From Sulfurisphaera javensis (GTDB taxonomy: Archaea > Thermoproteota > Thermoprotei_A > Sulfolobales > Sulfolobaceae), in the NCBI RefSeq assembly GCF_041154675.1, contig NZ_AP031322.1, positions 434,001 through 498,000 of the forward strand: 64,000 nt of DNA, read 5' to 3'. This document shows, one piece after another, positions 26,673 to 57,202 of the stretch. Positions within the stretch are counted from its first letter, which is position 1. Each line of letters begins with the position of its first letter. A model generated the notes under the pieces. It was not told the origin of the DNA. It did not search any database and saw only the letters and a program-made list of their open reading frames with translations. The position numbers and the translations under genes were made by a program.

Positions 26673-27389
26673 ATGAAATGTAGTACTGAAGGAAATAGGG
26701 ATATTAGAGGTTTTAATTTTCTTTTAGATAATTGTAATAAAGAATATTTAAGCAATAAATTTCAAGAATTTAGAAAATTATCGAATGATAGTAATAAAAC
26801 TTATATAATAAGACTTGCAGATAGTAACTATTATAGATTTGAAGTAATTATGATACCTAATTCTGTTACCTTGCTCTCAATAGCAACAGCTAGAGGTGTA
26901 AATAATATAAACCTTAGGGATTTTTCAGCATTAGAAGAATTAGCAACATTAAGCTGTTGTGCATACCAAAACGAGAAATTAAAAGAATTAGCAACCCAAT
27001 TTTTAGGAGAACAAAGAGAATATGAATCTGAAATCGTTGATTTAGAGGAGAAAAAGATTGAACTTGAGATAAATCCAGATTGTAATAAAGTTGAATGGAA
27101 TGAATTAAAATTACCCGAACAAATAGAAGGAAAATGGACTACCTCAGAATTAGCCTATACAGATAGATTAATACTTAAGGCTTTGGTTGGGCAAGGAAAA
27201 TTTATAACAATATCAACAGAAAGACCTCAAAATTCAATAAAGTTCAATTCATTTGAAAGACTTGGCAGTCTTTGCTGTTTTGTAAACATAATTCTTCAGA
27301 AACTAAAGGAATGTAACGGGTTAATAGAAGCATTAACACCATTATTGCAACAAGAAACTGGAAAAAGGAAAAGGAGAAAAAATGAGTGA
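26673..27389 (+). CDS. Hypothetical protein
   Basis: A 238-residue soluble protein that I do not recognise. It has several Cys (Cys3, Cys22, the pair in LSCCAYQ near 94, Cys135 and the pair in SLCCFV near 209), which is a high number for a protein of this AT-rich genome, and a Lys/Arg-rich C-terminus (GKRKRRKNE). The Cys pairs do not make a standard zinc finger. It overlaps the next gene by 8 bp and is probably co-transcribed with it. A TATA-like TTTTTAAATA lies at 26642-26651. Confidence 0.6.
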   Translation: MKCSTEGNRDIRGFNFLLDNCNKEYLSNKFQEFRKLSNDSNKTYIIRLADSNYYRFEVIMIPNSVTLLSIATARGVNNINLRDFSALEELATLSCCAYQNEKLKELATQFLGEQREYESEIVDLEEKKIELEINPDCNKVEWNELKLPEQIEGKWTTSELAYTDRLILKALVGQGKFITISTERPQNSIKFNSFERLGSLCCFVNIILQKLKECNGLIEALTPLLQQETGKRKRRKNE

Positions 27390-27888
27390 AAATATAAAAC
27401 CAATTTACGCTAGAGGCTTTTTTAATATGAATAATTTGGGAGAAACTAATCAATTGGTTATTTTTTATTATTATGATAAGGATTCTTACTATGCTTCTCT
27501 TAAAAAAGACGAAATAAAAAATGAGCTAAACAAATTAAAAGATAATATGCAATATTACTTAGATAGAGAAATAATTAAGGTAAATGGCAAAAGAGTAAAA
27601 GCAAAAGTTCTTTTTACAAGATTAGGTTTACTTGATGTAACTCATCCTTATGTCGAATTTATTATAAGATTTTACGGAGAATTAAATCAAGGTGAAAATC
27701 TATATGAAGATATATATGAAGAGGAGATTGCTGAATACCCCTATGAAGCAATCTGGGTTTTACCAGGTAAAATTATTTCATACTCGTTATCTGGGAGAGT
27801 TAAAATAAAGAATAATATTCTTTTTGTAAAGGTTAAAAAAGGTACAAAAATTAAAGGGAATGAAAAAATAGTGTTCTTTATAGAGTAA
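27382..27888 (+). CDS. Hypothetical protein
   Basis: A 168-residue soluble protein of predicted mixed strands and helices with many Tyr and acidic residues (ENLYEDIYEEEIAEYPYEAIW near 121-141). I do not recognise the family. The ATG overlaps the end of the previous unknown gene by 8 bp, making a two-gene unit behind an ArsR-like regulator. The 3' end overlaps the pterin dehydratase gene on the other strand by 11 bp. Confidence 0.6.
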   Translation: MSENIKPIYARGFFNMNNLGETNQLVIFYYYDKDSYYASLKKDEIKNELNKLKDNMQYYLDREIIKVNGKRVKAKVLFTRLGLLDVTHPYVEFIIRFYGELNQGENLYEDIYEEEIAEYPYEAIWVLPGKIISYSLSGRVKIKNNILFVKVKKGTKIKGNEKIVFFIE

Positions 27889-28159
27889 TTTCATCAATTT
27901 TTTTAGCCAGCTCTATATCTAAATCTGTAAGTCCACCTACATCATGGGTAGTTAATTGAACAATAACCTTGTTATAGTATATACATACATCAGGATGATG
28001 ATCCATAGAATCCGCTATTGGTTGTATTTTTAAAACAAAAGATACCGATTCCTTAAAATCATTAAATTGAAACGTTTTTTCTATTGTATTTCCTTTTAAA
28101 ATCCATCCTTTTAATTCCTTTAAAGCTTGGTATACTTCAGAATCTGATAGCTTTTTCAT
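27878..28159 (-). CDS. Pterin-4a-carbinolamine dehydratase-like protein
   Basis: A 93-residue protein of the PCD/DCoH family. The family core is present: FKESVSFVLKIQPIADSMDHHPDVCIYYNKVIVQLTTHDVGGLTDLD, including the His-His-Pro active loop (DHHPDV) and the THxxGGLT segment. Family members dehydrate 4a-hydroxytetrahydrobiopterin, and in archaea may act in molybdopterin or pterin recycling. It converges on the hypothetical gene by 11 bp. The upstream side holds the C/D box sRNA candidate. Confidence 0.88.
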   Translation of the reverse strand: MKKLSDSEVYQALKELKGWILKGNTIEKTFQFNDFKESVSFVLKIQPIADSMDHHPDVCIYYNKVIVQLTTHDVGGLTDLDIELAKKIDEITL

Positions 28160-28190
28160 AGTTTAACATATTGTTTTAAAGGTATAAAAA

Positions 28191-28245
28191 AATCAGCACT
28201 TAAAGGACTCTTCACTATTCAGTCTGGGGAGTTTTCATCCTCATT
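28191..28245 (-). ncRNA. C/D box guide sRNA candidate (dual guide)
   Basis: Read on the minus strand: C box AGGATGA (28241-28235), a 12-nt spacer AAACTCCCCAGA, D' box CTGA (28222-28219), a 4-nt gap, C' box TGAAGA (28214-28209), a 12-nt spacer GTCCTTTAAGTG, D box CTGA (28196-28193), then a run of T. The order and the two 12-nt spacers are what archaeal box C/D sRNAs show. The complements CTGGGGAGT and ACTTAAAGGA resemble two nearby conserved stretches of archaeal 16S rRNA (around E. coli 883-891 and 909-918, from memory). The C box starts at the stop codon of the upstream membrane-protein gene. Confidence 0.72.
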
Positions 28246-29053
28246 TTAACTCTGCTGACATCCTCTTAATAAGTGTATATATTAATGGTACTAAAAGTAT
28301 TGCAAAAGCAATAGCTAAACCCCAAGCTAAAGTTTGTAAAATTGACAAAACTGAACTAAATGGTTGAACAATTATTGCAATAGCTATTATAAGAAATATT
28401 GTATATAGTAGAAATCTTCCATATGTCGAGATATATGAAGCATTAGGATCTGTTTTTGCTATACTATCTATTGCTTTATCTATTATCGTAAAGCTAAATA
28501 GTAGCACTATTGAACCAATAATAATATCATAGAAAAGATATGGACTTATAAAAGGTATCCAGTAAAATATAGCCAATGTAGCTGCTAAAGTTATAATTAT
28601 AGCATATAATCCAAATTTAAGGACACTAAATATTGTTGTCATAAATGGATCATTAGTAATCATTTGTTTACCCATATAATCTATAAGGACATTTACTAAT
28701 GTTATCCCTAATGTTAGTAATAAAATGGCTCCGGCAAGATAAGGTAAATATCTTGCCACATCCTCTATATAAACACTAGCTGGACCTAAACTAACAACAG
28801 TCAAACCTATTGATAATGATATAAGAATTATTAAAGCCTTTACAGTTCCAGCAACTAAGCTGGCACTAATTTGAATAGTAGAGTGAGAGAATAATCTTAC
28901 AAGAACTCTTTGAATAACAGAACTAACTATCTCCGCTATTACGTACCCTACAAAAACTATAATAAGAAATAATATAATTGATGGAATTGCATCTATAATT
29001 TCTGTCGCTAACGTTGTTAAAGCTTGTGAAATTGTTTCATCAATTACTATCAT
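28241..29053 (-). CDS. Membrane protein related to mechanosensitive-channel transmembrane domains
   Basis: About 270 residues with five to six transmembrane helices and a pattern of repeated AxxVxxLI helices like the N-terminal TM region of MscS/CmpX-type proteins (AIPSIILFLIIVFVGYVIAEIV near residues 20-41). The soluble MscS beta domain is missing, so it may be a TM-only relative. The frame is open to a TTG at 29077, but a TATA box CTTATAAATT (29077-29086, minus strand) sits about 27 bases before the ATG at 29053, so that start is used. The stop codon overlaps the C box of the downstream sRNA candidate. Confidence 0.62.
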   Translation of the reverse strand: MIVIDETISQALTTLATEIIDAIPSIILFLIIVFVGYVIAEIVSSVIQRVLVRLFSHSTIQISASLVAGTVKALIILISLSIGLTVVSLGPASVYIEDVARYLPYLAGAILLLTLGITLVNVLIDYMGKQMITNDPFMTTIFSVLKFGLYAIIITLAATLAIFYWIPFISPYLFYDIIIGSIVLLFSFTIIDKAIDSIAKTDPNASYISTYGRFLLYTIFLIIAIAIIVQPFSSVLSILQTLAWGLAIAFAILLVPLIYTLIKRMSAELK

Positions 29054-29087
29054 GGTTGTAGTACTATCACATTTCAAATTTATAAGA

Positions 29088-29447: not shown

Positions 29448-30608
29448 TTACATTTGATCTTCATACCCTAAATCCATTGTATCTTCAATAGCTTTTCTTA
29501 TTTTTTCTTTATCAGTTACTTCTATATATTTTCTTATACCACCAGCTCTTCCTTTATTTATGATTTTAACTTTTATTATTCCAAACATATCTAACTCTGA
29601 TATTATATCAGAAAATCTTCTATATGATAACGGTTTTTGCTTATATTGGTTACATAAATCAGTATAAATTTTATGTGCTGTAACTACATCTTCAGCTTCC
29701 ATAGTAGCCATTAAAGCTAGTTTGTAATGAAATGGAAGTGCCTTAATCGCCTCAATTAATCTTTCTTGTTCATATTCTATTATTGCTCTATCCACATGTT
29801 CCTTTCTTATAAAACCTTCTCCAGAAGCTAATTGTGCAGCTCTGAACAATAAGTTAACTGCTTTTCTTGCATCTCCATGTTCTTTAGCCGAAATAGCTGC
29901 AATATAAGATAGAATATTATCATCATAAGTACCTCTATAAAGACCGTATTCAGCGTAAATTGATAATATGTGCTTTAATTGTTCTGCATCATAAGGTTTA
30001 AAGAATACCGTAGGACCTAAAGAAGAGAGAACTCTTGGTTCCATGTAATCTCTTATATTTATATCATTACTGACCATTATTACTGATATATCTGCATCAG
30101 CTCTCAATAGTTGATAAAGTACAATATCTCCTCCTCTTCTTTTTATTAAAGTATCAACCTCATCTAAGTAAACTAAAGCTTTCTTATTAGCTAATTCTTC
30201 TTTAATTTTCTCTAAATATTCGCCAAGATTGATCCCATGTTTAGGCACCTCATCATTAGTTAGCCTCTCTGTTAAAGCAGATAAAACAGCTTGAGGAGTA
30301 CCTCCAACTTCTCTACAATTTACATAAGCTTGTTTCACTTTACTATAATCTTGATCTTCATGCTTTACCTCTTCAATCTCATTTAGCATATATCTAGCTA
30401 CAAATGTTTTCCCTGTACCAGTTAATCCTAAAAATAGAGTAGAAAAACGAACATCAGACTTTACAAAATATCTAACTGCGATAGCAACCTCTCTCAATAT
30501 ATCTTCTCTAAAAGGAATATCTTTAAATACAGTTAAAGGATCAATGAAAACCCTAGGATCCTTAATAACCTCTCCTTTTCCACCTTTCAAGGCATCTCTA
30601 ATTGACAC
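29448..30608 (-). CDS. cdc6-3: Replication initiator Orc1/Cdc6-3
   Basis: A 386-residue AAA+ Orc1/Cdc6 protein that marks and fires a replication origin. Walker A GLTGTGKT is at residues 61-68, Walker [10 protein letters not shown] near 146-154, the AAA+ sensor regions follow, and the winged-helix domain lies at about 290-380 with [15 protein letters not shown] as its recognition part. The N-terminus [24 protein letters not shown] closely matches my memory of Sulfolobus Cdc6-3, not Cdc6-1. The GTG start at 30608 faces an AT-rich intergenic region with origin-like repeats, as expected for oriC2. A weak TATA-like segment at about 30632-30642 lies among initiator-site look-alikes, so it may autoregulate. 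Confidence 0.9.
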
Positions 30609-57049: not shown

Positions 57050-57125
57050 GGGCCCGTGGTCTAGCCTGGACTAGGATGCAGCGCTCGGGCCGCTGTGGTC
57101 CCGGGTTCAAATCCCGGCGGGCCCA
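57050..57125 (+). tRNA. tRNA-Pro (CGG)
   Basis: The sequence folds as a 76-nt cloverleaf: acceptor GGGCCCG with CGGGCCC, anticodon stem CAGCG/CGCTG, loop CTCGGGC with anticodon CGG, T-stem CCGGG/CCCGG with loop TTCAAAT, discriminator A at 57125. CCA is not encoded. There is no intron. Spacing to the next tRNA is one base. Confidence 0.93.
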
Positions 57126-57126
57126 A

Positions 57127-57202
<76 letters not shown>

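Follow-up and report, generated by a model that had tools for sequence, protein, structure and literature searches.

Between a membrane protein gene and a pterin dehydratase gene of Sulfurisphaera javensis, in the window analysed here (the whole stretch of 64 kb), lies a short minus-strand segment laid out like a C/D box sRNA. Does this segment encode a guide RNA, and which rRNA nucleotides would it modify? Our analysis indicates that it is almost certainly a canonical C/D box sRNA of the archaeal dual-guide type, from a Sulfurisphaera-like member of the Sulfolobaceae, and it is predicted to guide methylation of G847 and U873 on the two strands of 16S rRNA helix 27.

Anatomy and surroundings of the sRNA locus

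Direct reading of the minus strand from 28241 to 28193 gave box C, guide 1, box D', the trinucleotide ATA, box C', guide 2 and box D, followed by seven T (Table 1). This agrees with the original prediction, which had listed the four boxes in order, two spacers of exactly 12 nt and the T run; both guides are within the 10-12 nt range of the class. The layout was also scanned for, allowing up to one mismatch in box C and two in box C'; the D boxes had to match exactly and the spacers to measure 10-13 nt. It occurs a single time in the window and in none of 20 dinucleotide shuffles. The TGA stop codon of the upstream gene is at 28243-28241, and its last A is therefore the first base of box C. Thus the proposed start of the sRNA at this stop codon was borne out, with one base shared between the two elements. 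The mature RNA probably covers approximately 28191-28245. The T run may be a T-rich terminator or one half of a weak A/U terminal stem. Only weak A-U pairing is allowed between the A-rich 5' side and this run, and the stem is absent from the minimum-energy fold, which ignores the non-standard pairs of k-turns. There is little or no T run in some orthologs (G026, G011 and G005).

Table 1. Features of the sRNA locus and of the two genes that flank it
Feature	Position	Strand	Evidence and remarks
Upstream gene, membrane protein with mechanosensitive-channel TM-helix domain (PF05552)	28241..29077	-	Pfam
C/D box sRNA core, box C to box D	28193..28241	-	sequence; unique layout in the window; orthologs in 22/31 Sulfolobaceae genomes
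Box C, AGGATGA	28235..28241	-	sequence, layout scan; one mismatch to consensus RUGAUGA
D' guide (guide 1), AAACTCCCCAGA	28223..28234	-	pairs over 9 bp with nt 844-852 of own 16S; Gm847 predicted (E. coli G886)
Box D', CTGA	28219..28222	-	sequence, layout scan; exact
D'-C' loop, ATA	28216..28218	-	sequence; 3 nt
Box C', GTGAAGA	28209..28215	-	sequence, layout scan; one mismatch to consensus
D guide (guide 2), GTCCTTTAAGTG	28197..28208	-	pairs over 10 bp with nt 870-879 of own 16S; Um873 predicted (E. coli U912)
Box D, CTGA	28193..28196	-	sequence, layout scan; exact
Seven-T run 3' of box D	28186..28192	-	sequence
Downstream gene, pterin-4a-carbinolamine dehydratase (PF01329)	27878..28159	-	Pfam

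Other genes were found around the locus. A Cdc6/Orc1 gene (29448-30608, minus strand) is followed by a gene of 113 aa without a Pfam family, and the order Cdc6, 113-aa gene, channel gene, sRNA is common to four genera. Facing the dehydratase gene are two overlapping conserved genes of 238 and 168 aa, both without a Pfam family (26673-27888, plus strand), whose relatives occupy the same place in several genera. Further along, two tRNA genes identified by Rfam are separated by one base (57050-57200, plus strand).

Targets in 16S rRNA

Targets were mapped on the single 16S gene of the genome itself. For guide 1, contiguous Watson-Crick pairing extends over 9 bp at nt 844-852 (CTGGGGAGT), and for guide 2 over 10 bp at nt 870-879 (ACTTAAAGGA), with duplex energies of -18.7 and -12.9 kcal/mol, respectively. 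Three positions of guide 1 are unpaired in this species, which leaves it only the 9 contiguous pairs, and a single shuffled guide reaches 9 bp somewhere in 16S about 1% of the time. For the two guides together, none of 20,000 shuffled guide pairs gave 9+9 bp within 40 nt. Inside 23S rRNA, the best uninterrupted Watson-Crick matches are of 8 bp or less for guide 1 and 7 bp or less for guide 2, while the top matches of this search fell in the 16S part of the rRNA locus; 23S rRNA was rejected as a target because its matches are weaker.

The box+5 rule places the predicted modifications at G847 (Gm) and U873 (Um). In E. coli rrsH, CTGGGGAG is found at 883 and CTC at 910, and the predicted sites therefore correspond to E. 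coli G886 and U912. Positions 885-912 of E. coli 16S rRNA form helix 27, and G886 and U912 lie on its opposite strands, in adjacent base pairs. Much of this had been anticipated for the conserved archaeal 16S rRNA, and it proved true of the organism's own gene. Alignment of the spacers, which had been proposed as a check and could have exposed poor complementarity, showed that both guides pair; the target stretches, expected about 25 nt apart, start 26 nt apart with 17 nt between them; the location at the helix 27 core is upheld by the rrsH mapping; and the expected bases, a G of the GGGG run and the second U of ACUU, coincide with G847 and U873. As far as sequence goes, the original prediction is confirmed in what it observed and supported in its interpretation as a dual-guide sRNA.

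Conservation in Sulfolobaceae

With a model of sequence alone, made from four copies, convincing orthologs were identified in 22 of the 31 Sulfolobaceae genomes (this one included), with E values from 3e-18 to 2e-8. One of these is at C1:2501-2551 of genome G023, which we take to be S. acidocaldarius DSM 639. No ortholog reached a convincing score in the other 9 of the 31 genomes, so either the family as a whole does not depend on the sRNA, or the sRNA has diverged there. The D guide measures 12 nt in all 25 parsed relatives and the D' guide in 23 of them. The RNA varies least in its guide cores; boxes, D'-C' loop and flanks vary. Box C is GTGATGA, GTGAAGA or ATGATGA in other genera, all still C/D-like, and the D'-C' loop is mostly of 3 nt.

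Copies in genera g1, g8, g10 and g11 share one neighbourhood, made up of Cdc6, the 113-aa gene, the channel gene, the sRNA and the dehydratase gene, the last being absent in g10. The g5 and g7 copies are located elsewhere, and the g6 copy has the dehydratase and/or the Cdc6 gene nearby in a different arrangement. These differences in surroundings show that the sRNA and the channel gene move independently of each other.

The D' guide core CTCCCCA is shared by sRNAs from genomes of the order that belong to other families (G047, G033, G076 and G060; loci L011, L012, L013 and L014). Their D guide, AATTCCTTTA, is shifted along the rRNA, so that the first target is the same and the second has moved. 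For G047, the site predicted for the shifted guide corresponds to E. coli A915.

Guides follow changes in their target

The 16S region was recovered from 11 of 35 genomes, and the search for compensatory changes therefore covers 8 sRNA/16S pairs. In all 8, the pair at the predicted site is Watson-Crick for both guides; outside the predicted site, guide 1 has a single G-U in the g6 and g11 pairs. The 16S rRNA of genus g11 reads CTGGGGAATAC in place of the CTGGGGAGTAC of the other genera, and TATTC in its guide 1 replaces their AACTC or TACTC. Here a G-to-A change in 16S is offset in the guide by C-to-U, which restores the Watson-Crick pair (two genomes with readable 16S, G025 and G027). Since the change is confined to one genus, it was probably one event. 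This compensatory change adds support to a guide function.

A second sRNA directed to helix 27

The genome has another dual-guide C/D sRNA outside the window, near G000:C1:1503165-1503188 on the minus strand (locus L088), which was found through a weak model match. With the pattern used, this sRNA is present in the same genome, three congeners and seven g7 genomes, that is, only in genera g1 and g7. It has the same C/D layout as the window sRNA. One guide, GAGCGACCGTAT, is complementary to TACGGTCGC in the distal part of helix 27, and the D guide, AATTCCTTTAAG, to CTTAAAGGAATT in the same 16S region. The box+5 rule predicts G855 and A875 as its sites (E. coli G894 and A914). The D guides of the two sRNAs overlap on 16S rRNA, their predicted sites U873 and A875 being two nt apart, and the two sRNAs therefore cannot bind together. 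Helix 27 is the region of the debated 885/912 switch. It is conceivable, but we consider it doubtful, that the two sRNAs, which between them span helix 27 in this lineage, form an ordered chaperone pair that would bind sequentially, holding and then releasing the strands of helix 27.

Comparison with known archaeal C/D box sRNAs

Archaeal C/D sRNAs are described, in passages of PMC7994747 and PMC3608112, as having RUGAUGA and CUGA boxes, guides of 10-12 nt and the box+5 rule. The same passages report dual guides to closely linked sites as well as sRNA genes that overlap gene 3' ends, box C being the commonest place for the stop codon. Among 489 archaeal sRNAs surveyed in PMC4644070, double guides are predicted to make up about half, and the hotspots in 16S rRNA are helices 3, 18 and 27. 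Set beside the archaeal double-guide C/D sRNAs (Omer et al. 2000; Dennis et al. 2015, PMC4644070; PMC7994747), as far as passages of these sources describe them, the window sRNA has the same size of ~50-55 nt, the same C-guide-D'-C'-guide-D order and the same 12-nt guides. It likewise has two targets within 100 nt of one rRNA, a box+5 site, overlap with a gene 3' end, a stop codon touching box C and a helix 27 target. No difference in kind was found. Dual guides to nearby sites, the helix 27 hotspot and the stop codon in box C are all published archaeal features, and the window sRNA is a standard, very well conserved member of a well-known class.

Rfam gave no match at the locus at gathering score. 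Below threshold, there were C/D matches to snoPyro_CD (RF00095; E=5e-4, 28.9 bits against a gathering score of 45) and sR41 (RF01126; E=5e-3). Both have the same box architecture, but their guides differ from those of the window sRNA, which makes them structural relatives and not orthologs. The window sRNA by name and its two sites were not found in the main-text passages of PMC4644070, PMC7994747, PMC11698992, PMC10516650, PMC7005279 and PMC3608112. Since G023 carries an ortholog, the sRNA may already be among those catalogued in S. acidocaldarius, which number 61 in passages of PMC4644070. If an S. acidocaldarius sRNA with guides CTCCCCAG and CCTTTAAG, or Gm and Um at both sites, has been catalogued, the finding is already known.

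Proposed function and alternative explanations

The genes for fibrillarin and Nop5 adjoin in the same genome (G000:C1:2068995-2070487), which also encodes L7Ae. We propose that the sRNA is released, probably, from the 3' end of the upstream transcript and that L7Ae, Nop5 and fibrillarin would assemble on its C/D and C'/D' motifs. Each of the two 12-nt guides would pair with one strand of 16S helix 27, and fibrillarin would then 2'-O-methylate G847 and U873. The bound RNP would hold both strands open and thus may also time the folding of the helix.

The last step could be the main one. An RNA that is made and binds helix 27, but acts mainly as a folding chaperone, with one or neither site methylated efficiently, would fit the placement of the two guides, one on each strand of a single local helix. 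Proposals that dual-guide sRNAs act as chaperones are found in PMC4644070 and PMC7994747, and modifications in the S. solfataricus 30S structure are few (25 in all, from passages of PMC11698992). On the other hand, the predicted-site pair is Watson-Crick at both guides in every checkable genome and the 12-nt guide-box spacing, which catalysis needs, has been retained, and we regard a mainly chaperoning RNA as unlikely. The overlap of box C with the channel-gene stop codon could instead point to a k-turn at the 3' end of the channel mRNA, bound by L7Ae for mRNA regulation, with the rRNA complementarity being secondary; L7Ae is able to regulate mRNAs through k-turns, according to the abstract of PMC5539422. 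Other genera, however, have the sRNA without the channel gene and keep both guides, and the guides are its best conserved part and follow changes in 16S rRNA. This very improbable explanation was rejected, as the locus changes place from one genus to another.

Words such as CTGA and GATGA are common in AT-rich DNA, and a chance arrangement of such words with no RNA product would need no further explanation. The shuffled windows and shuffled guide pairs never reproduced the arrangement (0/20 and 0/20,000), and orthologs exist in 22 genomes; the conservation already refutes chance, which retains practically no probability. Methylation of G847 and U873 by a dual-guide RNP is our preferred reading.

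Knowledge of the class is not changed by this sRNA. It offers a clean comparative case, in which a guide RNA has been kept across several genera and has its predicted targets in a functionally central rRNA helix, and in which a change in the guide tracks a change in the rRNA. With this case, the modification of helix 27 in Sulfolobaceae becomes directly testable.
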